A DNA stretch of 64,000 nt from Deltaproteobacteria bacterium (GTDB taxonomy: Bacteria; Bdellovibrionota; Bdellovibrionia; Bdellovibrionales; Bdellovibrionaceae). Below are positions 31,566-63,004 of this stretch, piece by piece. The notes beneath the pieces were generated by a model that saw nothing but the letters and a program-made list of their open reading frames with translations, ran no database searches and had not been told where the DNA came from. Every line of letters starts with the position of its first letter. Positions within the stretch are counted from its first letter, which is position 1. Location: the NCBI GenBank assembly GCA_017302835.1, contig JAFLCC010000009.1, forward strand, positions 1 to 64,000, written 5' to 3'. The position numbers and the translations under genes are program-made.

Positions 31566-32597
31566 CTATGCTGCCAGCAAGGGCGCCATCGCTGGTTTGA
31601 TCGAAGAGTCTTCAGCATCAACTATAATTTTTGCAGAATCATAGAGAGCTTTATTGTAGGGCTGCGATGAGTAAATATCGATGTCTTTGCAGCCCAGATT
31701 ATGAAAGAGTTCATGGAAATAAGTATTTTTTGCAGATTTGCTTTTCCATTCCTTACAGGTTTTTGGATTCATTGAAATTAAAGGATGATCTTGATCGGCT
31801 GGACTCGCAGTTGCATGTGCATTAGCACCTGCCCAATTAAAACTATCTTCGTTGCATACAACTTTTGGTTTTGGTTGGGAATTAAAAAGACCAAAGAATC
31901 TGACTACATGTTCATTAGACTTTGAGGTGTTCAGATTTTGAAGACACTGGAGTCCTGAGTGAAGTGCTTCTGAGTACTCTTTTAAAGCAATCTGGGCCCC
32001 TCCTCGTGCATCGATGCAAGATTTATGAATACGAAGTCCATATTTTGTATTAAGAAAGCCAGCATTGTCATACGCTAAATTTTGATTAAGCGAGGAGATC
32101 TGTTGAAAGAAAGTTTGTAATTGAGATTTTGAACACGATTCTGAATTTTGGGTCACAATGAGCTTAACATGGGTTTCAATTAATTTGTTATTTGTAAAAA
32201 GTTGAGTTTCCAAATAAGAAATTTCCGCGAATGATTTTAAGACAGTTTTTTCTGAAAGGTTAGAGCTTTTATAAATTCTTCTTTCAAACCGAGGGTGTTT
32301 ATTTGATCCATACTCTTCAATCCAGTCAATGGTTCCAGTAAAATTGGAATCCTTCTCGATCCTCGAAATATAATTGTCTTTGTCAACAAATTGGCAGAAG
32401 TCCAGTTTTCTATCTTGATTTAAATCAAAACAATGTTTAGTGAATCTTCCGCTTTTTAAAATAACAGGTTTAATCTTAAATTCATTCCAGCTAAAACTTT
32501 CTTCAGGTGCTGAACCAGCAAAACTCTTACTAAGTAAGAAGAAAAAATAAATTAAGTTAAAAATTAAAATTTTAAAATGATTCAAAGGAAGAGGCAT
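31566..32597 (-). CDS. Secreted HExxH metalloprotease-like protein
   Basis: I take the ATG at 32597, which gives a compact signal peptide (NHFKILIFNLIYFFFLLSKS) and avoids overlap with the next gene; GTG at 32612 and TTG at 32609 are possible. About 343 residues. Near the C-terminus lies YFHELFHNLGCKD (zinc motif HExxH at about residue 295), preceded by two cysteine-rich stretches. A sequence LNQDRKLDFCQFVD near residue 70 resembles a calcium-binding DxDxD loop. I do not recognise the peptidase family. It is downstream of, and possibly co-transcribed with, the oxidoreductase gene. Confidence 0.7.
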   Translation of the reverse strand: MPLPLNHFKILIFNLIYFFFLLSKSFAGSAPEESFSWNEFKIKPVILKSGRFTKHCFDLNQDRKLDFCQFVDKDNYISRIEKDSNFTGTIDWIEEYGSNKHPRFERRIYKSSNLSEKTVLKSFAEISYLETQLFTNNKLIETHVKLIVTQNSESCSKSQLQTFFQQISSLNQNLAYDNAGFLNTKYGLRIHKSCIDARGGAQIALKEYSEALHSGLQCLQNLNTSKSNEHVVRFFGLFNSQPKPKVVCNEDSFNWAGANAHATASPADQDHPLISMNPKTCKEWKSKSAKNTYFHELFHNLGCKDIDIYSSQPYNKALYDSAKIIVDAEDSSIKPAMAPLLAA

Positions 32598-32658
32598 AAA
32601 ATGCTTCAACACGTATTTGTCGCCCCGTAATTTGTATGTGGCAGGCTTCACCAGGCGA

Positions 32659-33741
32659 TTATAAATCAACTGACAACTCTGTGCCAAGCCTATCTTCTAT
32701 AGGCAGTCTAATAGTTCTTCCTTCAGTTGAACTTTGAAATGCTAATTCGATAATTTTGGCGACGCTTAAGGCTTCTTGTGGTGAAACGGGAAGTTCTCCG
32801 AGCCCAGTGGTTATCTTTTTATAGAGGAGATCATAGAAACAGAGATAAGAGCCTTTTTCAGATTTAATTTTTTCAATTTTTTGATTGTTTGGAAAGACCA
32901 ACTGGCCATCATATTTTTCTTCTTCAATTCCAAAGGAGGAGTTTAAAACGGATACCCCATGTTTCATTTGTTCTTCCTGTGGATCAAGTCCAAATTTGGT
33001 AAAACATGCCTGATCTCCAAAAATTTGAAATCGAGGCGTTGAAGAGGAAAAGGATGAACTCTGCAACAGGACTCTGGTGGATCCGTATTTTAAGATGATA
33101 TGAAAAAAATCATCATTAACAGAGCCATCCTTTTGGTTACAAATATCAGCAGTCAAATGATCAGGACTTCCAAAAATATTTAAAGCTTGGTCGATAAGGT
33201 GAGTTCCTAAATCATACAAAATACCAGAGCCTTTTAAAGATTGTTCTCGCCAACGATCTGGACGCACCGTTGGGCGCCAACGATCAAAATGAGATTCAAA
33301 ATGTTTTATATGCCCTAATTTTCCCTCTTTAATTAATTTCTTCACAGTTAGAAAGTCGGAATCCCATCTGCGATTATGAAAAATGGATAAGACTTTTCCA
33401 GTGCGTTGGGCTAGTTCAATTAAATGTTTTCCTTCATTGACAGAATTCACAAAGGGTTTTTCAATGACCACATTTTTTCCATTCTTTAGCGCTGCTTCTG
33501 AATAGGAAAAGTGAAAAGAATTGGGGGCCGCATTAATGATAAGATCTAAATGAGGGTGATCGATAAGTTCGCAGGGATCTGGAGTCACTCGAACTTCGGG
33601 AAGGGATGATTTTACTTTGCCTGTATCAGAGGAACAGACCATGTCGATTTGATAACCGCCATGGGCCTGAAGCAGTGGTGTATGAAAAAACTTTCCCGAA
33701 AGACCAAACCCGATGATTCCTACTTTAATTTTCTTTTTCAT
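32659..33741 (-). CDS. Gfo/Idh/MocA-family NAD(P)-dependent oxidoreductase
   Basis: The 360-residue cytoplasmic enzyme has the N-terminal dinucleotide fold GIIGFGLSGKFFHTPLL (8-24), the family motif NVVIEKPF near 100, and the second-domain strings FHNRRWDSDF and GSGILYDLGTHLIDQA with the catalytic-site Asp and His. It is closest in layout to the YdgJ/YvaA/IolU group, which oxidise cyclitols or sugar alcohols. The substrate is unknown. Start ATG with AGGA nearby (GAGGACACTCTC before it). Confidence 0.88.
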   Translation of the reverse strand: MKKKIKVGIIGFGLSGKFFHTPLLQAHGGYQIDMVCSSDTGKVKSSLPEVRVTPDPCELIDHPHLDLIINAAPNSFHFSYSEAALKNGKNVVIEKPFVNSVNEGKHLIELAQRTGKVLSIFHNRRWDSDFLTVKKLIKEGKLGHIKHFESHFDRWRPTVRPDRWREQSLKGSGILYDLGTHLIDQALNIFGSPDHLTADICNQKDGSVNDDFFHIILKYGSTRVLLQSSSFSSSTPRFQIFGDQACFTKFGLDPQEEQMKHGVSVLNSSFGIEEEKYDGQLVFPNNQKIEKIKSEKGSYLCFYDLLYKKITTGLGELPVSPQEALSVAKIIELAFQSSTEGRTIRLPIEDRLGTELSVDL

Positions 33742-34286: not shown

Positions 34287-35648
34287 TTACCAACAAAACC
34301 GGGCGCCTTGGTCCCATAGGTCTAAATCTAAGCTTGCATTTTTAATAATTTCTTTTGTTCCAATATTTGCATTGAGTTTAGACTGGATATCAAGCATCTG
34401 GTAACCAAGGCCAGCTAAAATCGTTATGCTTAAAGCCGATTCTTTTTTTATTTTATTTTGAAGTCTCAAACAAGAGGTTAAGGCAGCTGTTGAATAGTGG
34501 TGAAAATCTGTTTCTCTTAGTCGTTTAACTAGATAGGTGTTAAACTCAATCCATGGTAGAAATTTCATCAAAACGGTATTCGCCTTTTCTGAGTCTATCA
34601 GTTTAGGCTTCAGTACCTCCGCATTTAACAACGCTGCATTTATTTGGGTTCTGAGGGAGTAGGGAAGAGTCCAATCTTTGAATCGATCATGTTGATTAAG
34701 TAAAAGTATTTTTTCTGTAAAATTAAATTCAGGACATCTTGATGAGAGCTGATTAAATAAGAATGAAAAAATCTGACTCAAAGGTTTATCGGTTGGGTTA
34801 AAATTAAATGGCTGCCCGGCTAAACAACTAAAAGATTTATGGCTTAAGTTTTTAATATTTAAATTTACAAATGGATAAATTTCATTTTCATCAGCACTGG
34901 ATGGATATAAAAATTGATAGGGGTTGATATCTTGAAAGGTGTCATTTAAAAGTTTTAAGCGGTCCTCTTTCGGTAGGCTAAAAAATTGAATTAATGACCA
35001 GCGAACAATTGGTTTTTCGATGAGAGCCAGGCCAATGTTCAGATAGGACTCAATAGTCTTTTGGTTTGACTCAGAAAAAAAATATTTTAAAAGTTTCTCT
35101 AGAGAAATTCTGATAATGGGAGGTTGAGGAGAATTTGAATTATTTAAAAGTTTGGTAATCATTAAAAATTGCGTCGACCATAAGTCATCAGAAACAAGTT
35201 TTTGATAAAACATCATGGCATCCGTTGTCCGAGAATGACCGATATTAAAGGGTGCTGGCTTTTTACAAATTTGTTGAAATTGATTATGAATGGACTCAAG
35301 TTTCATTGCCATCTCGCTGAACACATTTACGGGTACCGTCTCAACAAAATTTTGCTTTCGATTGAGTAAATCAAAGTGAGTTACTTTTTGTCCAGATTGT
35401 TCCATGTAAACAGTTTCGGTGATTTCTTCAACGGCTCTTTCGAGGAAAGCGGCATTTTTAGGGTCTGTTTTTTTTAAGCTATCATAACATTTTTGTAATT
35501 CAATAAAGAGCCCTATACTATGTTGAGCGTTCTCGTTATTAAGGCTTTTTTTAAGGAGAGGAAGTGAAATCGTTGGGGTTGCTTCCGACTCCCTATAAAA
35601 TAAGCAAAATACAAGTAATGCAGGGAATGCAGAAAAAAGATATTTCAT
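34287..35648 (-). CDS. Secreted protein of unknown function, third gene of operon
   Basis: The 453 residues begin with a signal peptide (MKYLFSAFPALLVFCLFYRE, cleavage near 23). The mature protein is helical and mildly charged, with cysteines at KCYDSL, QICKKP, FSCLAGQ, RCPEFN, TSCLRLQ and the C-terminal RFCW, possibly paired. No catalytic motif is visible. It begins six bases after the stop of the preceding gene, so the three secreted-protein genes (39111 to 34287) form one operon. Confidence 0.75.
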   Translation of the reverse strand: MKYLFSAFPALLVFCLFYRESEATPTISLPLLKKSLNNENAQHSIGLFIELQKCYDSLKKTDPKNAAFLERAVEEITETVYMEQSGQKVTHFDLLNRKQNFVETVPVNVFSEMAMKLESIHNQFQQICKKPAPFNIGHSRTTDAMMFYQKLVSDDLWSTQFLMITKLLNNSNSPQPPIIRISLEKLLKYFFSESNQKTIESYLNIGLALIEKPIVRWSLIQFFSLPKEDRLKLLNDTFQDINPYQFLYPSSADENEIYPFVNLNIKNLSHKSFSCLAGQPFNFNPTDKPLSQIFSFLFNQLSSRCPEFNFTEKILLLNQHDRFKDWTLPYSLRTQINAALLNAEVLKPKLIDSEKANTVLMKFLPWIEFNTYLVKRLRETDFHHYSTAALTSCLRLQNKIKKESALSITILAGLGYQMLDIQSKLNANIGTKEIIKNASLDLDLWDQGARFCW

Positions 35649-35654
35649 TCAAGC

Positions 35655-37250
35655 CTATTCTTTTAGCTGGTTCAAAATCCAATTAATTTTGCCAGCATCT
35701 TGTCCTGGACCATCGCCTCCGTTTTTCCAGTTGATCGCCGATGTGGGATCAGTTGGCATATAAATATCAAATAAACGATGAGCTGTGATAATTTCTTTAA
35801 TCGGTTTATTTTTCGCTAGTCCTTGTTTTAAGGCTAAAAATAAAATGAGCTCATCGAGTTTTTCTTCAACATCGAAAAGTTCTGGCGAATACTGAATTTG
35901 ATCTGGCATCATTGCTAAAATACCATCAAGTAGTTTTAAATTATAGATCACTCGACCATCTTCTATATTCTTAAAATTCTCAGGGATATTGTCGTTGTTA
36001 AAAGTCGGAGGTAACATGACATAAGTATGTTGAGTCCACTGTCCATTTGAGAATCCATTACCTTGAGAGTCGGTAATCTCTGAAATCAGCACCGCCACCA
36101 CATCTTGATAATTGCGAGCCTCTTCGGCCAATTGTTTTAAGGTAAGCGAGCTTAAATGAGAGGTCACGTCCACCCCTTTTTTGTTAAATCTAACGACTTT
36201 TAATTTGAACTTAGATGAAGATTGGAAATTCCATTTATCTGAAGAAATCTTAACAACTGGCTTTGTTTGCACCGAGTTCATTGATATACTGTATTGGGAT
36301 CCATCACAGTCAAATGGACAAAACCATTCCGTATTTGTTGAAATATGATAGGACAGATTGGGTTCTTGAACTTTCACTATGGAGTCGGCTCGATTTAAAA
36401 AATAGTGCTGAGCAGTGGAGGAAATGCCTTCAATAGAGCCAACTTTCTCTGTTAAAAAGTGTTTTGTATTGGAACTGAGTAAGGCTTGTCCTTTACACTT
36501 ATCAATATCAAATTCATCATTACTAAATATTTTCTCTATTGTAGATCGACTCACTTTCCATTCATCGCTTAGGCACCAATAGGTGCCTTCACGCAAATTT
36601 TGGGTCATAGGGGTTTTATTTAGAAAGTTTCTGACCTGTCCTAACAACATTTGTTTTTCTACAATCGTCAAACCCAGATAGCTTTGGTCATTTTGGTGAA
36701 AATAAAAGGAATGGGGATTTATTCTGGCCCAAGCGGCATCTTTTCCTTCCACATGACCTAGTGTGAAATTTCCACCGTAAAGCCCTTCATTAATCGACAT
36801 CGTTAAAGAAGATGCTGCATCAAACCCAAGTCTTGACGAGGCGCTTGTTCCGTCAATTCTGGCAACGGCTAGATTATTAGGAAGTTTTATTTCAATTTTC
36901 GTTTCAGTTCCCGATTTGCGGCGAGAAATATCGCCCATGGGGGTACCTACGCCAACATCAATGCTGGATTTTCTTTTCTGAGCTACCACATCAAAAACCC
37001 CGTAATTTTTTTCTCGAGTGCAAGCATTTCCCATAGAATCACACGGGAAATTCATTTTAGAATGAGGGCCGCTAAAGCGATAAACTTTCCAAGGGTTTGG
37101 GGCCTCTACAAAAGCTTTCGGTGAAAACTGACCAAAAGAGCCCGTAGATTTGTCTAATCCTCCAGCCCTGGCGTTAAATTCGACGCCAAACACTGAATTA
37201 AATATTCCTATGACAACGACCCAATTTTTAATTCTATAAATCTGTTTCAC
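35655..37250 (-). CDS. Secreted protein, paralogue of its operon neighbour
   Basis: The start is the GTG at 37250, six bases after AAGGAG; the longer ATG at 37271 would place that site inside the gene. The 531 residues begin with a signal peptide (RIKNWVVVIGIFNSVFGVEF then NARA). Conserved with the upstream neighbour are EGTYWCLSD, a DIDKCKG motif, and the C-terminal MMPDQIQYSPELFDVEEKLD. The function is unknown and no membrane anchor is visible, so it is periplasmic or released. It overlaps the preceding gene by 17 bases. Confidence 0.8.
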   Translation of the reverse strand: MKQIYRIKNWVVVIGIFNSVFGVEFNARAGGLDKSTGSFGQFSPKAFVEAPNPWKVYRFSGPHSKMNFPCDSMGNACTREKNYGVFDVVAQKRKSSIDVGVGTPMGDISRRKSGTETKIEIKLPNNLAVARIDGTSASSRLGFDAASSLTMSINEGLYGGNFTLGHVEGKDAAWARINPHSFYFHQNDQSYLGLTIVEKQMLLGQVRNFLNKTPMTQNLREGTYWCLSDEWKVSRSTIEKIFSNDEFDIDKCKGQALLSSNTKHFLTEKVGSIEGISSTAQHYFLNRADSIVKVQEPNLSYHISTNTEWFCPFDCDGSQYSISMNSVQTKPVVKISSDKWNFQSSSKFKLKVVRFNKKGVDVTSHLSSLTLKQLAEEARNYQDVVAVLISEITDSQGNGFSNGQWTQHTYVMLPPTFNNDNIPENFKNIEDGRVIYNLKLLDGILAMMPDQIQYSPELFDVEEKLDELILFLALKQGLAKNKPIKEIITAHRLFDIYMPTDPTSAINWKNGGDGPGQDAGKINWILNQLKE

Positions 37251-39111
37251 TTTTAACTCCTTTATTCGCATGGTCTTTAATTATAACAGCTGAATTTCCT
37301 GATGGAAAAGTATCTGGAATTCGGGTTTTACTTGAGGCCACAATTTTAAGATCTCCAAATAGATCCCAAATTTTTTGTTGCGCGGTCAGGTGATCTTCCT
37401 CGGTTCCCACATCCACAGCATCTTCCAACGTGATCACACCGGGATCCTTTGCTGCATTGTTCTTTAAAATAATAAAAATCTTATCAAGATAATCTTCAAT
37501 CTCCACTAACTCCGTGGACAATTGAGCTTGATCTGGGATGGCAGCTAAAGCTTTATCAATGAGTTTTAGTTTTGTAAGCTCAGGAACTTCGATGCCATTA
37601 AGTTTTGGTGGAACTAAAATATAGAGGTGAAGAGTCGAGCTGACCCAGGGATTGCATTCTTTATTGTAATTTAAGTTGATGGGTCCATATCCATGATATC
37701 CTTTTTCATGTTGGGGATTAACATATTCATTATAGGTTGCATTACCCCAACCACTTGTTTTAATCGTTTTTTCTTCGCAGGCAGTTCCATTAGCACGAGT
37801 GTAGACCTCACCTACTTTTTCGTAAGCCACCATGGCCACACGCTGTGAAGCCAGTTCAATTTTTTCTGATGAAAGCATACCTCTCTTTTTTGAATACACT
37901 TCGAGAAACCAAGAATCGCTATCTGAAATTCCCTCAAAGTCAGGATCCAAGCGCCAATTAAAGCTCAAAAGCTTGGACCTTGGATAGTTGCACTCTCCAC
38001 TTTGTCGTGTGAGGGTGCTAGGGCAATTTTGCATTTCATTCAAATTAAACCGTTTTGAGTTCCAATAAAATAAATTGATATCCTTATCGTCCTTCTTATA
38101 TTGAGCTTTGTAATCTGTTCCATTTGCCGAAATGATGGAGACATCGGTGATAGATTTATATGATAAACCGGTGGCACGCGTTTCAGGGTCTCTGATAGCG
38201 ACGACAGAGCTGGTTCTATCTGTGAATGCCTGCTTAAACATTCCACCCGTGGTGGTGATGGAATCGATGGGCTTAACAATGCCTTTACAGTCACGAAAGT
38301 CATATTTGTCATTATATAAAAAAAGTTTTTCTAAACCTTTAGTCAATCTTACCGAATCAGAGTCACACCACATAGTTCCACGCCGCATCCCTTCCGAAGT
38401 TTTGGTATCAGTTTGATTTGTCGGAATAACTCTTTCAATAACTGTTGTCACAAATTGATCTTTATTATCAATGTGCCGGTAAACTGATTCTGGTTGATTA
38501 AACATTTTAGGAGCATCAGCTTCCTCGATATGCCCCAATTGACGAGGAGTTCCCTTTTTGTCGAAGCCGAAAAAAGTTTGAACTTGAGATTCATCAATTT
38601 GTAACTTAGCTTGGGCCTCAATTTCATCTAATCGCAGAAGGTTGATCCCTTGGGGGTTTTGTACTAAAGTTTGCTCAACACTTCCATGATCAAATGACTT
38701 AACCAAACCAATAATGGTTTCTTGAGCCACTCGTTGCCCCTTTTGGTCAGTACCAGCATCGATTTTAAAAATTTGAGCCTCTTTTTCAAAATTACAGTCG
38801 CCACTTTTGCATAGAGGGCCAAGATAAGCTTTGTCTCTGCTACAGCTCCCCTTACTATCACAGGATTCACCGCTATAGTAGGGGATATAATCTCGTTGTT
38901 TCAGAGTTTTCACGACGATATGGTAACCACTCCATCCAGAAGCGATATATTTAGAAGGTGACCAATTTCCATTATGTATTTGATCAGGGGCAATGATGCT
39001 GCTGCCACTGTTCATCGTAGAACTGAAGGCTCCTGCATAGGTGACTTGTCCCACTACAAAGTGTAAAACTGTCATGCATCTGATTATTCTTTTTACAGAA
39101 AAAAAGTTCAT
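37234..39111 (-). CDS. Secreted protein, first gene of operon, paralogue of the next
   Basis: The start is the ATG at 39111, five bases after GGAGG. The 625 residues begin with a signal peptide (RIIRCMTVLHFVVGQVTYAG). A cysteine-rich stretch follows (SCDSKGSCSRDK, PLCKSGDCNF), as in the paralogue's PCDSMGNACTRE. Shared blocks are RRGTMWCDSD, FRDCKG and AAIPDQAQLSTELVEIEDYLD. It is larger than its neighbour mainly in the middle. Function unknown. The gene is transcribed divergently from an HELAH metalloprotease-like gene. Confidence 0.8.
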   Translation of the reverse strand: MNFFSVKRIIRCMTVLHFVVGQVTYAGAFSSTMNSGSSIIAPDQIHNGNWSPSKYIASGWSGYHIVVKTLKQRDYIPYYSGESCDSKGSCSRDKAYLGPLCKSGDCNFEKEAQIFKIDAGTDQKGQRVAQETIIGLVKSFDHGSVEQTLVQNPQGINLLRLDEIEAQAKLQIDESQVQTFFGFDKKGTPRQLGHIEEADAPKMFNQPESVYRHIDNKDQFVTTVIERVIPTNQTDTKTSEGMRRGTMWCDSDSVRLTKGLEKLFLYNDKYDFRDCKGIVKPIDSITTTGGMFKQAFTDRTSSVVAIRDPETRATGLSYKSITDVSIISANGTDYKAQYKKDDKDINLFYWNSKRFNLNEMQNCPSTLTRQSGECNYPRSKLLSFNWRLDPDFEGISDSDSWFLEVYSKKRGMLSSEKIELASQRVAMVAYEKVGEVYTRANGTACEEKTIKTSGWGNATYNEYVNPQHEKGYHGYGPINLNYNKECNPWVSSTLHLYILVPPKLNGIEVPELTKLKLIDKALAAIPDQAQLSTELVEIEDYLDKIFIILKNNAAKDPGVITLEDAVDVGTEEDHLTAQQKIWDLFGDLKIVASSKTRIPDTFPSGNSAVIIKDHANKGVKSETDL

Positions 39112-39208
39112 ATAAACCTCCGAAGGTCTTATTTTTTCATATGAAATCATAGGGCAATTGAGGGGCCAACTTTGGCAAGCTTTTCGCAATGTTTTCTATT
39201 TTATGTTT

Positions 39209-40111
39209 ATGAAATTTATTAAATTGTTTTTTATCATCATCTTCTTTATCTCTGAGGTTTATGCGCAGAGGTATGATAATTTTTTAAATTCCGTTCAAGA
39301 AAATCTTCCAGTGAATACAGATTTTTTAAAATGGGTTTTAAAAAATCATGGAACAAAGCTGGCGACCCCTTCCAAGTTGGAACAATGGGGTCTGATTAAT
39401 TCGGAAAATGCAGCTGCCTTTTTTCAAATATTTAATGCCCTTGTTGTGAAACCAGAAAACTTAATTCGTGATGAAAAATCGAACAAAAGACGTCTTAAAA
39501 ATTGGGATGAACTTAGAAAAACAAATCCAGATAATTGGACGATAAGAATGGGAACCATTTTTCATGAGCTAGCGCATGCGGAATATGACTGGTTACCAAA
39601 TTCAGAAAATGAAGTTGATAAAGAACTTTTTCATTTTCTTGAAAATGATTTTAAAAATTATTTAGAATTACATCATCCTAACTATAACTATTTTGATCGC
39701 AACAGCGCTCCATCGGAAATGTACGCCTATTTTCACGGGGAATTTTTGTACATGTTATTATATTTAGTTGATGATTTATTCGTTGAAAATGGCTATTTTA
39801 AATTTTTAAAGAAATGTAAAAACGATAAGAAATTGGAAAAAATACTAGCAAACATTAGTCAACCCAGTAAAAAACTTTTTTTTACATTGGGCCAAGATGA
39901 GAATTTTACGCAAGGTCCACTGCCAAGTATTTATGTGAAAGGGAAAGAAGTCATAGTTGATTCAACTCAACAGGAAATGATACGGTTGAGGGAGTTGCTA
40001 TGGAAGCAATTCACAGAACACGCAGTTCCTGTACGATCTAAGTTTGAAGTCGTCAGGTGGATGAACACCAAACCAAATCTACTGAAATTAATTTCCAGCT
40101 GTAGAAATTAA
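39209..40111 (+). CDS. Secreted HELAH metalloprotease-like protein
   Basis: No clear ribosome site is present; the ATG at 39209 gives a standard signal peptide (MKFIKLFFIIIFFISEVYAQ), while the frame is open back to 39158. The 300 residues contain IFHELAHAEYDW (His119, Glu120, His123), and later SAPSEMYAYFHGEF, which could supply a third zinc ligand. The C-terminus is charged. The family is not recognised. Its start faces the secreted-protein operon, suggesting shared regulation from the short gap between them. Confidence 0.7.
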   Translation: MKFIKLFFIIIFFISEVYAQRYDNFLNSVQENLPVNTDFLKWVLKNHGTKLATPSKLEQWGLINSENAAAFFQIFNALVVKPENLIRDEKSNKRRLKNWDELRKTNPDNWTIRMGTIFHELAHAEYDWLPNSENEVDKELFHFLENDFKNYLELHHPNYNYFDRNSAPSEMYAYFHGEFLYMLLYLVDDLFVENGYFKFLKKCKNDKKLEKILANISQPSKKLFFTLGQDENFTQGPLPSIYVKGKEVIVDSTQQEMIRLRELLWKQFTEHAVPVRSKFEVVRWMNTKPNLLKLISSCRN

Positions 40112-40279: not shown

Positions 40280-41950
40280 ATGACGACCCAACAGAACAGA
40301 TTTTTCTTTCCATGGCCTTTCTTTCAAAGATTAGTTTTTCAAAACTCGCTGTTATGTTTAATATTCTTAGCAATAGGAGCAAGCCAACTAACTTCTGCAG
40401 AACCCCTCGGAACAAATGCTTCTGATACGGGTCTGATTTCAGAATATACAGGTACAAGTTTTCAAGAGCTAATAGATGTCATTCAAGACAAAAATTTTGT
40501 GCCAAGCACTTCCGAACAAAGCAAAGAGTTCGATGTTTATAAAAGTCAAAACCTACCTCATTATGAAGTTTCTTTTAAATCCTTAGGGGGACTATTAAAA
40601 AATAATTTAGATTCAGTTTCAAAAAGAACGCTTAAAGATCGTTATGATTATTACCCTCAAGGTTTTATAAAATTCGTCCATGCAAATGGAATTTGTTTGT
40701 CTGGTACTTGGGATATAACGGAAGATACACCTTATACGGGTTATTTTAAAAATGCCAGTCATGGACTTGTGATCGCCAGGGCTTCCGTGGCTTTAGATGG
40801 AACCACTAAAAATTCTTCTCGCGGATTTGGATTGGCTGTCAAACTTTTTCCTACCCTGAATTCTAATGAAAAAATTAAAACGTCTAATCTATTCACTGTC
40901 GATATTTTAAGTGGAAGCCATTCAGATCGATTTTTAGATGTCGCACTGACCAATAGTCCTCCATTGGTTTTGGATGCCAAACTTTTAGGTGTTTTCTCAA
41001 AAATTGGACCAGCTTTTTTAACAGCAGACTCGTCTCCGACCTATAGACCTATTTCTTCATTCGCAAAAATTGGAGTCTTGGAAAATGAAACTGCTGTTGC
41101 TCCCATTTTTATACGTTATCGCCCTGTTAAAGAAACAATTAAAAATAGTCAAAGTGATTTTAGAAGCGAAATATCCGAAGCGATGAAAGAAAATGGTGTC
41201 CTAAAATTCATGATTGAGGTTTCAGATACCACCAAGGATAGATTTGCTAGCTCTGGATGGACACCTATTGGTGTTCTTACCTTTGACCAAACCTATTTGA
41301 GTTATAGTTGTGATCGACGTTTGCATTTTCCTCATCCTGCTGATGACAAAAGAAGTAAACTACCCAAATCGATTTCATCTATTTCTGCGATGAGTTCATC
41401 TGCAAATGCGTCTGTGAGTTCATCGGTGATTCCTCAAGAAAATTTTAAATCGGTACTTGCAAAAATAAGTGATACTTATTGGAAAGGTAACTTTCAAGTT
41501 CATGGTCTTGGTCCGTTAACAAATTGTTCTGGAGACTTAGATATTCGATTTTTTCCAGAAGTTGTTGAAGACTTTTCCCAAGGAGAAAGTACTGTTTCAT
41601 ACCGTCACCATGCTGACTTTACAAAAAATAAAAACCCGATATGCAGATATATAGTGGCTGAATTGAGTCCTGTCGCTGTTGGAAAATGTGAAGAAACGAT
41701 TCCAAAGAAATATAATCCTGCAGAAACTGCAATGGTTCCTTTTCGTACGATTATTCCTAGCTCGAATGGAGACTCGGCAATCGTTAGTTCTCCTAGTTGT
41801 GATAATAAATCTCATACCTACTCTAGAAAAAATATCCAGCTGGCCAAGGCGACTCTTACTGACCAGAACAGAAAACTAGAACTTGAGCTGCACTTGGGAT
41901 TGTTAGGTTCAACTTTTAAATTAACCTATCAGCTGAATAAACAAGATTAA
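40280..41950 (+). CDS. Secreted catalase-like protein
   Basis: The ATG at 40280 follows GGAG by seven bases. The 556 residues start with a signal peptide (FQNSLLCLIFLAIGASQL). The first 330 residues look like the catalase-like/SrpA fold: GFIKFVHANGICLSGTWD near 130, then TPYTGYFKNASHGLVIARAS and RGFGLAVKLFPT, equivalent to the haem-catalase segment with RFS and RGMA. The last 200 residues form a second, cysteine-containing beta-rich region. The haem-ligand tyrosine region of true catalases is not obvious, so peroxidase activity is uncertain. Confidence 0.65.
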   Translation: MTTQQNRFFFPWPFFQRLVFQNSLLCLIFLAIGASQLTSAEPLGTNASDTGLISEYTGTSFQELIDVIQDKNFVPSTSEQSKEFDVYKSQNLPHYEVSFKSLGGLLKNNLDSVSKRTLKDRYDYYPQGFIKFVHANGICLSGTWDITEDTPYTGYFKNASHGLVIARASVALDGTTKNSSRGFGLAVKLFPTLNSNEKIKTSNLFTVDILSGSHSDRFLDVALTNSPPLVLDAKLLGVFSKIGPAFLTADSSPTYRPISSFAKIGVLENETAVAPIFIRYRPVKETIKNSQSDFRSEISEAMKENGVLKFMIEVSDTTKDRFASSGWTPIGVLTFDQTYLSYSCDRRLHFPHPADDKRSKLPKSISSISAMSSSANASVSSSVIPQENFKSVLAKISDTYWKGNFQVHGLGPLTNCSGDLDIRFFPEVVEDFSQGESTVSYRHHADFTKNKNPICRYIVAELSPVAVGKCEETIPKKYNPAETAMVPFRTIIPSSNGDSAIVSSPSCDNKSHTYSRKNIQLAKATLTDQNRKLELELHLGLLGSTFKLTYQLNKQD

Positions 41951-42415: not shown

Positions 42416-42832
42416 TTACCGGTGCAAATTATTTTTCAGGCCAGAGTAGAAACGCGCTCTATCTAACCATCTCTCCAGTTTTTTACTATCGGTAGTTGTG
42501 AGCAAGCTAGAACAAAACCATTTCTCTTTCCCTTGCACTTTGATCGTCACGGACTCGCTGCAATTTGCAATTTTGCGCTTATTGGCGATTTTTAATGCTT
42601 CCACGATTTGAAGAAAATCAGACTCCATCGAATGAAATGTTTTTTCTGTTAGGACCGTGAACTTCAGAACTTCTCCATTTGAAATATGATTCAACAAATA
42701 CGTCTTATCAATTTTTGAGGGCGTATCTGACAAACTGTAGCCGTTTTTAAAATAGCCACGATTGTTTGTAATTTGAAAATGAATCGCTAGTGTTGACAAG
42801 GACAGAAGAAAGATAGTTAAAAATATTTTCAT
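42416..42832 (-). CDS. Small secreted protein, second gene of a pair
   Basis: The 138 residues begin with a short signal peptide (MKIFLTIFLLSLSTLA). The mature part has two cysteines (IANCSES, WFCSSL) and a basic C-terminus. No family is recognised. Its ATG overlaps the stop codon of the metalloprotease-like gene by four bases, so it is translationally coupled to it; it could be an inhibitor, chaperone or partner of that protein, which is speculation. Confidence 0.7.
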   Translation of the reverse strand: MKIFLTIFLLSLSTLAIHFQITNNRGYFKNGYSLSDTPSKIDKTYLLNHISNGEVLKFTVLTEKTFHSMESDFLQIVEALKIANKRKIANCSESVTIKVQGKEKWFCSSLLTTTDSKKLERWLDRARFYSGLKNNLHR

Positions 42833-44646
42833 CTTGTTTGTCCCTCCCTTTTTGCATTGTCATTTCCTGTTTCATGCGGATGTGAGAAGTTTTTTAATTT
42901 ATCGAAACACTGAGTGTTTTTACCAGGACTGCAATCTAAGCTCTCAGCGATCTTAGGAAGACTAAAATACAGGTCGTTCAATCTAACTTCATGAGGTGGA
43001 TGAACCAAACTCAAACGCAATTGATCTTGCATCTTACCTGATTTTGCAATTGATTTAAGACTGAAGAGCGACAACTGTTGTGGACGAATTTTTGAGGTGT
43101 ATTTAACTTCTTCTTGGTGGTGGTTGCAATAGCTGATTCCAAAAAACGAATACAAACTGATTTTTTCAAGATCTGATTTGGGTGGGTGTTCAGTCAGGTA
43201 CTCATCCATGGCTAAGGCACCCCACATGTCAGCCATGGCTTCGTCTGATTCGTCGGCTTTATCAAATCCGCCTAGGCATTCGATAAAGTGTTCGTTTCTT
43301 GATTGCAATTGTCTTTGATCTTCAACAGATAGTGGCGAACCCTGGGATTGAAAAACTTGAGAGGTTGTGCTTGTTAGCTTTGTTGAATCTTCTTTTGAAA
43401 CGATTCGAAAATTTGAATTTTTAACGATACACTCTTTGACCTTTGCAAATGGATAGTCTTCTTTATCAATCTTTTCCACAATCGGCGTGAAGAGTTTAAT
43501 TTTATCCGTGTAGCTTCTAAATGATTCACTCATAAAGTAGTCATTATTAATACGGACGGTATGATTTTGCGGCATCGCTCGTTTGAGATCTTCTAGAAGT
43601 TCATTATCAATTCGATTAGCATTCGCGGACTTCTTAGAAAGCAAACTATCCAGCATTTGAGGATCGACTTTATCCAAACCTAAACTTAAGCTACATGCAC
43701 TGATACTGTGACCCATTTCATGCCCGATAATTCCAACTAACTGATTGTCTGGGTAATTTAAAACAGAATCACATACAACAAAGGTGTGTGTTGGTGGATT
43801 GTAATAAGCATTAGGCCCATTCTGACACGGTTTTCTTAGGTCTGGAGGAATTTCGTCCTCAAACTTAATCGTTAAGTCATCTATTGTTTGATCAAGCGCT
43901 TTTTTATTTTTATTGGATGCATTTCTTTCAAAATTTTTTTTGAAGGAATTTTTGGCCACGTCAAAAAGTTCTTTCGCCTTGTCTCGGCGCTGTTGCATAT
44001 GGGCTTTTTGTTGTTCCTGCTGACTATTCAGAGCTTCATTACTGGCAGGATTGCTATAGGCGCCACTTAATATCGAATTTGTTTTTATTTGAAGCTCGAT
44101 GACATCCTTTAAAGCCCTTCTTGTTTGAGGACTGACGTTTTCAGAGTTCATGAATTCAACCATTTCATCTATCGAAACAGTTTGATACTTTTGTTGATTC
44201 CCGTTAGGTGGCCAGAAAAACTTTACAGGCATATCCAGCAAATATTGTTTTTTAGATAATTTTCCGCTTTTTTCGAAGTTGATGAAAGAGAAGAAAACAA
44301 GATGAGGATCTGTCAAAACATTCATTTGAAATTCACTAGTCATTTTTTTTTCTGAGCTTAATACATTAGCCAATTGCCTGCGTGCTTGGATTAATCTCAT
44401 TGACGAGTTATCATACTCTGCCATTTTAGCTGGATCCGGTTTCATCCCCATCCCCATCCCCATCCCTTGAGGATCTGTTTTTGGATGACGAGGATTTGGA
44501 AAAGATGTTCCATCTGATAATTTGATTTCTGCTGGATATGAGTCAAAAATGCGGCAATCGCGAGTTAGAACGGAAACGTCGCATGCCGGTTTGTCTGCGG
44601 CATGAACCAACAAACTCGATATCCCTAAAAAAAAGAATTTTTTCAT
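42829..44646 (-). CDS. Secreted zinc metalloprotease-like protein (HEMGH)
   Basis: The 605 residues start with a signal peptide (MKKFFFLGISSLLVHA). A GMGMGMGM repeat lies at 61-68. The zinc motif is VGIIGHEMGHSISAC (His309, Glu310, His313), and SDEAMADMWGALAMDEYL near 470 looks like the distal E-xx-AD helix of gluzincins such as M48. Around 200-260 the protein is Gln/Lys-rich and coiled-coil-like. There are no transmembrane helices after the signal, unlike HtpX. Function in the envelope or outside is unknown. Confidence 0.8.
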   Translation of the reverse strand: MKKFFFLGISSLLVHAADKPACDVSVLTRDCRIFDSYPAEIKLSDGTSFPNPRHPKTDPQGMGMGMGMKPDPAKMAEYDNSSMRLIQARRQLANVLSSEKKMTSEFQMNVLTDPHLVFFSFINFEKSGKLSKKQYLLDMPVKFFWPPNGNQQKYQTVSIDEMVEFMNSENVSPQTRRALKDVIELQIKTNSILSGAYSNPASNEALNSQQEQQKAHMQQRRDKAKELFDVAKNSFKKNFERNASNKNKKALDQTIDDLTIKFEDEIPPDLRKPCQNGPNAYYNPPTHTFVVCDSVLNYPDNQLVGIIGHEMGHSISACSLSLGLDKVDPQMLDSLLSKKSANANRIDNELLEDLKRAMPQNHTVRINNDYFMSESFRSYTDKIKLFTPIVEKIDKEDYPFAKVKECIVKNSNFRIVSKEDSTKLTSTTSQVFQSQGSPLSVEDQRQLQSRNEHFIECLGGFDKADESDEAMADMWGALAMDEYLTEHPPKSDLEKISLYSFFGISYCNHHQEEVKYTSKIRPQQLSLFSLKSIAKSGKMQDQLRLSLVHPPHEVRLNDLYFSLPKIAESLDCSPGKNTQCFDKLKNFSHPHETGNDNAKREGQTR

Positions 44647-44983: not shown

Positions 44984-45175
44984 ATGCAAAGCTCTTCTTC
45001 ATCTTTTAAAAAAAGAAAACAAACTAATCTTGAGACAGCCAATGAAATGTTTAAAGATGCCTTTTTAGTTAAAAAAGCTCGCTTTTCACATCTATACCCG
45101 GAGCGGTCAGAGAAAGAACTTCTTAAATTGACTGCTGAGTATTTCAAAAAGCTGAATGAGGAAAAGTCCAAATGA
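44984..45175 (+). CDS. Antitoxin, Rv0078B/MenA1-like
   Basis: The 63-residue acidic-basic helical protein has the pattern of the Rv0078B-related antitoxins: an N-terminal polar start, ANEMFKDAFLVKKARFSH, then LYPERSEKELLKLTAEYF, as in the xxHPxxSExEIxxxLxxW family signature. The ATG at 44984 lacks a strong ribosome site. Its stop overlaps the ATG of the nucleotidyltransferase gene (ATGA), the classical coupling of a toxin-antitoxin pair. Autoregulation would be expected but no operator is identified. Confidence 0.65.
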   Translation: MQSSSSSFKKRKQTNLETANEMFKDAFLVKKARFSHLYPERSEKELLKLTAEYFKKLNEEKSK

Positions 45176-45720
45176 TAGGGTTGCTCGATGTTTTAAGAGA
45201 GGTCGTTTTAAAATTTGAAAAAGCAGGAATCGAATACTTTATGGTGGGATCAATGGCGACTATGTATTATGGCCAACCCCGCTTCACGCGAGATTTAGAT
45301 CTTGTGGCACGCCTTCGTGCTCGTCAAGTTTTGGGTTTTGAAAAGCTATTCCCACTTTCTGAGTTTTATTGCCCTCCCATCGAACTTATACAAGATGAAG
45401 TTCAGCGTAAAGGAAGTTTTAATCTTATTCATCAAGAATCTGGAATCAAAGTGGATCTTGTTATTGATAAGGAAACTGAGTTCTACATCTCTGAATTTGC
45501 ACGAAGAAAAAAAGTAAAAATATCTGAGGACCTTCAGGTCTATCTTGCTTCTCCAGAAGATCTGATTATTAAGAAGCTTGATTTTTACAGAGAGGGTGAA
45601 TCAGAAAAACATCTGAGCGATATCCGTGATATTCTCATGAATGTTGCAGTGGATGAAGAGTATTTACAACATTGGATCAAAAAAATGGGACTCGTAAACG
45701 AGTGGAACAAAGTTCAGTGA
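45172..45720 (+). CDS. Nucleotidyltransferase toxin, MenT/AbiEii-like
   Basis: MenT-type enzymes add nucleotides to tRNA 3' ends and stop growth. The 182 residues show the polymerase-beta-type signature YFMVGSMATMYYG (Gly26-Ser27) with FTRDLDLV (Asp41, Asp43), followed by VDLVIDKETEF and the late LASPEDLIIKKLDFYREG with SEKHLSDIRDIL typical of the DUF6036/AbiEii-like group. The catalytic residues are intact. With the overlapping small gene upstream it forms a probable MenAT system related to M. tuberculosis Rv0078A. Confidence 0.75.
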   Translation: MIGLLDVLREVVLKFEKAGIEYFMVGSMATMYYGQPRFTRDLDLVARLRARQVLGFEKLFPLSEFYCPPIELIQDEVQRKGSFNLIHQESGIKVDLVIDKETEFYISEFARRKKVKISEDLQVYLASPEDLIIKKLDFYREGESEKHLSDIRDILMNVAVDEEYLQHWIKKMGLVNEWNKVQ

Positions 45721-62919: not shown

Positions 62920-63004
62920 TGGTGCCCCGCGAGGGACTTGAACCCCCACGCCTTGCGGCACTAGATCCTAAGTCTAGCGTGTCTGCCAATTTCACCAGCG
63001 GGGC
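62920..63004 (-). tRNA. tRNA-Leu (anticodon UAG)
   Basis: The minus strand folds into a complete 85-base class II tRNA: acceptor stem GCCCCGC with GCGGGGC, anticodon stem CTAGA/TCTAG with loop CTTAGGA (anticodon TAG), a long variable arm TGCCGCAAGGCGT, the TTCAAGT T-loop and an encoded CCA. It reads CUA and other CUN leucine codons. It lies between gcvH and the integrase fragment. Confidence 0.95.

Follow-up and report, generated by a model that had tools for sequence, protein, structure and literature searches.

The window, a 64,000-nucleotide stretch of DNA from a member of the Bdellovibrionaceae, carries three closely packed genes on its reverse strand and, divergent from them, the gene for what we call the HELAH protein. 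The features of this locus are as follows.

37234 to 39111, reverse strand: P0001, 625 aa, the first gene; hydrophobic N-terminus without a lipobox; blocks CDSKGSCSRDK (residue 84), GTMWCDSD (245), DCKG (274) and PDQAQLSTEL (526)
35655 to 37250, reverse strand: P0002, 531 aa, a paralogue of P0001 with a GTG start
34287 to 35648, reverse strand: P0003, 453 aa, the third gene, unlike P0001 and P0002; one distant relative, in genome G110
39112 to 39208: gap between the operon and the HELAH gene, 97 nt if the HELAH start is the ATG at 39209
39209 to 40111, forward strand: HELAH protein, 300 aa from the ATG at 39209; a divergent neighbour, judged to lie outside the module

The initial annotation placed the three reverse-strand genes correctly, with respect to both coordinates and strand, and described them as an operon. 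The GTG of P0002 at 37250 lies within the 3' end of P0001, giving an overlap of 17 nt. The P0002 stop and the start of P0003 are 6 nt apart. Because of this overlap and spacing we also read the three genes as an operon; they are probably co-transcribed. In the sequence we read AGGAG six bases 5' of the P0002 GTG and a Shine-Dalgarno-like GGAGG before the ATG of P0001. Alternative starts are an ATG at 37271 for P0002 and, possibly, an upstream TTG at 39158 for the HELAH gene. Codon usage, trained on eight genes of the window (seven with Pfam families above cut-off plus the gene at 42829-44646), favored the annotated frame of P0001 (0.131 bits per codon), P0002 (0.110) and, most weakly, P0003 (0.059), with values of 0.007 or less in the other five frames, so we regard all three as real genes. 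The GC content of the operon (0.35-0.40) was inside the range of the window. A consensus scan listed no promoter-like site in the 97-nt gap; since it found 15 sites compared to a shuffle mean of 19.6, i.e. fewer than in shuffles, the scan is uninformative.

The hydrophobic N-termini fit the prediction that the three proteins are secreted. The best 11-residue hydrophobic means of the four proteins P0001 to P0004 were 1.82, 2.43, 2.59 and 3.05 respectively, with cleavage sites placed by eye, and the lipobox [LVI][ASTVIFLMG][GASN]C was absent from the first 40 residues of all four. In P0001-P0003 no 19-residue window past residue 45 had a mean above 1.15, and therefore these proteins contain no clear internal membrane span.

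P0001 and P0002 are true tandem paralogues as judged from their alignments. BLASTP returned two segments, one of 59/245 identities (E 1e-17; P0001 84-309 against P0002 70-297) and one of 34/100 identities (E 3e-12; P0001 493-577 against P0002 406-505), so that the similarity extends over about 230 N-terminal and 85-100 C-terminal residues at 24-34% identity. With the signal regions removed, the Smith-Waterman score was 248; shuffles averaged 39.6, and none of 300 came up to the observed score. The GTxWCxSD, xCKG and PDQxQxSxEL blocks on which the pair had been recognized are all present in both proteins, with the same 22-residue spacing from GTxWCxSD to CKG, yet the similarity is not limited to them, because the alignment scores survive masking: 141 with the three blocks masked and 128 with a fourth block (CDSxG) masked too (0/300 shuffles in each case). 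The masked N and C parts taken separately scored 100 and 88, and again no shuffle of 300 reached either score. The middles (P0001 311-490, P0002 298-405) were not similar (258/300 shuffles reached the score), nor were the two halves of P0001 or of P0002 alike (203/300 and 282/300). Neither P0003 nor the HELAH protein resembled either paralogue (87, 217, 236 and 241 of 300 shuffles reached the scores). A cysteine-rich start had been ascribed to both paralogues; the description suits P0001, with cysteines at 84, 90, 101 and 106, but not P0002, which has only two, at 70 and 77. What the two starts have in common is CDSxG(x)xCxRxK, and four cysteines are invariant in the pair alignment (C84/C70, C90/C77, C249/C226 and C275/C252).

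In agreement with the initial annotation, the paralogues matched no curated family at its cut-off. Pfam gave none at cut-off for P0001-P0004, the lowest E value being 0.0043 (Ndc80_HEC on P0003); this match and those to Sec66, ICAM_N and pAdhesive_6 were rejected, as all were below cut-off. In the case of pAdhesive_6, P0002 scored 13.9 bits, the cut-off being 27, while P0001 had no match. Matches in NCBIfam were all far below cut-off, PHROGs gave nothing at E <0.06 and PADLOC nothing at 0.1. Comparison of P0001-P0003 with the sequences of solved structures yielded only chance-level matches (best E 0.16). AlphaFold2 models of P0001 and P0002 from two-row alignments had mean pLDDT values of 28.7 and 30.0, every residue being below 50. 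In these low-confidence models helices flank PDQxQxS in both proteins and strands occur in the N part; we treat each feature as a hint only.

A profile search based on the two paralogues had been suggested as a check. The two-row profile, run against 368 genomes of the phylum (234 of them with completeness of 90% or more and contamination of 5% or less), recovered just the two genes of the window; the other 367 genomes had no relative, and the own genome had no copies beyond the two. The genomes without a match include five congeners, represented by draft assemblies (90-210 contigs, 89-99% completeness), so one absence could be a gap but five hardly could. A search with P0002 was positive in 1 of 196 genomes, its own. 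No relative was found by tblastn of P0001 against plasmids or of P0002 against phages, and none was confirmed by peptide-pattern scans of genome contigs and viral contigs, a method that reaches only relatives keeping the short peptide. A degenerate DNA pattern for WCxSD...CKG was found in 13/368 genomes: both genes matched in the own genome (G000), and each of the other 12 had a single match. These 12 matches lay in stop-to-stop frames of 7-152 residues and a reversed control pattern matched once in each of 6 genomes, and we therefore took them as chance. Since the pair is without relatives in the genomes searched, the operon looks species-specific.

P0003 has a somewhat wider distribution. 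At E 0.01 it was found in 2/99 genomes (its own and G089); we discarded the G089 match (E 0.003), since the frame concerned is, in our own reading, that of a transporter permease. At E 0.001 it was found in 2/368 genomes, its own and G110, which belongs to another family of the same order. The G110 protein (P0005) matches P0003 with a BLASTP E of 4e-10 for the pair and a score of 118, the highest of 2000 shuffles being 62, and on this sequence evidence the match is real, if distant. The two share about 120 aligned residues with RCPE...DR...LP.S...IN, but the setting differs: P0005 is a 279-aa frame followed downstream by a 352-aa cysteine-containing protein. The latter (L060, 3529-4587, reverse strand) had no Pfam match at E ≤0.1. 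The phylum profile search found no relative of P0001 or P0002 in G110, where the contig (5,884 bases) extends for just about 240 bases on the upstream side of the 279-aa frame. Upstream of the G110 gene lies a frame of 81 aa, whose reading as a P0001/P0002 tail was rejected (614/1000 and 201/1000 shuffles reached the scores); its similarity to P0003 was not significant either (72/1000). A two-sequence profile of P0003 and its G110 relative found 5/368 genomes at E 0.01, namely the own genome, G110 and three others (G226, G056 and G266), whose matches (E 2.4e-4 to 0.004) contained internal stops and were rejected. A viral scan for P0003 gave no confirmed match.

The HELAH protein had been assigned to the same module as the operon, and this assignment was not supported. 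Relatives were found in 12/99 genomes, counting its own, including 4/5 congeners (all but G003) and six genomes from a different family within the order. None of the four congeners has a detectable P0001/P0002 relative, which argues that the HELAH protein lies outside the module. The 368-genome set, according to a full list of the same size, includes the genomes with HELAH relatives. In congeners, the DNA flanking the relatives of the HELAH gene and of 42829-44646 yielded no relative of any operon gene (E 1e-3 and 1e-4). A few other window genes matched around the HELAH relatives (e.g. an AcrB-type pump, at 27% identity), and such matches were taken as paralogues. The HELAH gene lies near BPL_N-like and M48-like genes in four congeners, with other genes intervening in some, a reading with which Pfam agrees for the two loci that it covered (BPL_N and M48 on L012, BPL_N on L013). 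In 4/6 genomes of the other family it adjoins genes that we take, from our own reading, to encode PurT and/or a DEAD-box helicase.

Nine of the 12 HELAH proteins were aligned, leaving out a split copy in G002, a short frame in G075 and the G009 match, which is weak and has a stop inside. HELxHAE, SExxAY and two cysteines are invariant across the nine, and so are H119, E120 and H123 of the HExxH motif; within SExxAY, the invariant E170 could be the third zinc ligand. The protein thus shares with M48/gluzincin HExxH metallopeptidases both HELxHAE and the downstream SExxAY. It differs from them in that Pfam gave no match, at E ≤1 for the window protein and at E ≤0.1 for two relatives, and zinc binding is only putative. 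The HELAH protein, together with relatives L011-L019, is best described as a putative exported metallopeptidase of wider distribution, whose position divergent from the operon here is happenstance.

Other genes around the operon are unevenly distributed among the five congeners. A probable exported HExxH protein (31566-32687, reverse strand; FHELFHNLGC), which falls into neither a Pfam nor an NCBIfam family, had no match in any of them; 32659-33741 had a weak match in one; 40280-41950 (forward strand), whose 556-aa product is probably exported and belongs to no known family, was matched in one by a fragment with a stop; and 42829-44646 was matched in two. The region 42416-44646 (reverse strand) holds the gene for a protein of 605 aa, whose M13 and M48 matches are below threshold, and an overlapping small gene of 138 aa, a pair that is conserved in G003. 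No more window genes were found at E 1e-4 in the stretches around the relatives of 42829-44646, save the small partner gene 42416-42832 in G003; in G001 the contig ends at the relative. This patchy occurrence indicates that the stretch containing the operon varies in content within the genus. Between the operon and a Gfo/Idh/MocA gene lies a DUF4399 gene (34167-33796, reverse strand) with an in-frame TAG, seen by eye, after 32 codons; past the TAG it matches PF14347 (E 2.9e-19), and it looks like a pseudogene. The product of 45172-45720 (forward strand) is nucleotidyltransferase-like (DUF6036, 23.4 bits against a 23.6-bit cut-off) and weakly AbiEii-like.

We tentatively read P0001-P0003 as Sec-exported proteins that form a disulfide-stabilized heteromer, arisen by old tandem duplication and encoded by a lineage-restricted operon. 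One ancestral protein, with a conserved region of about 230 residues at its N-terminus and a C-terminal segment around PDQxQxSxEL, would have been duplicated to give P0001 and P0002, whose middles then diverged or were replaced. The N-terminal cysteine pairs CDSxG..C and WC...C probably form disulfides. Coupled in translation, the paralogues would assemble with one another and also with P0003, either in the periplasm or at the cell surface, and the divergent middle segments may provide each partner with its own contact. The three proteins need not work together, however, because the P0003 relative in G110 occurs without a detectable relative of the pair (on a contig that ends about 240 bases upstream). 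A bolder version, an unprecedented lineage-specific exported apparatus that acts on prey or where the cell meets it, with specificity set by the middles, strikes us as very improbable.

The three genes could instead encode independent, fast-evolving secreted effectors or enzymes, for instance against prey or competitors, that are co-transcribed without forming a complex. We consider this doubtful: occurrence in 1/368 genomes and 24-34% identity between the copies fit rapid evolution, and two neighboring genes for probable exported proteins are likewise restricted, but there was no match to an enzyme or toxin family and we recognized, on our own reading, no conserved motif as catalytic. It is unlikely that they are structural or adhesive surface proteins such as fiber, coat or adhesin subunits. 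Large, cysteine-containing proteins without a clear internal membrane span would suit that role, as would the strands hinted at in the N part of the low-confidence models; the sole bacterial adhesin-type match, however, was the pAdhesive_6 match to P0002, at about half its cut-off, and in neither protein are the two halves alike. Recent acquisition from an unsampled donor, in place of a native old duplication, seems equally unlikely. The lack of the pair in five congeners is consistent with it, as is the finding that three neighbor genes were matched in 0/5, 1/5 and 1/5 of them. Against it, the GC content lies within the window's range, the sole tRNA or Rfam match in the window is at 62920, and neither a plasmid relative of P0001 nor a phage relative of P0002 was found. 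Acquisition is compatible with the exported heteromer, since the duplication may predate the transfer and have taken place in the donor.

P0001 and P0002 are, as far as the searches reach, a new orphan family, an ordinary kind of lineage-specific novelty and not a new kind of system. With two diverged members, the family offers a conserved core to test. P0003 represents a small family, predicted to be exported, that reaches another family of the order. The label envelope or predation-related, which the initial annotation gave the locus, does not follow from the sequence facts; should P0001-P0003 turn out to serve predation, they would be predation proteins specific to the species. Lengths of 453-625 aa are long for orphan genes. 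The locus is like other bacterial operons of lineage-restricted (orphan) genes in that the pair has no detectable homologue in the genomes of the genus and phylum that were searched, and in its ordinary composition and operon-like spacing. It differs from them by its paralogue pair, whose divergence suggests that the duplication is old.
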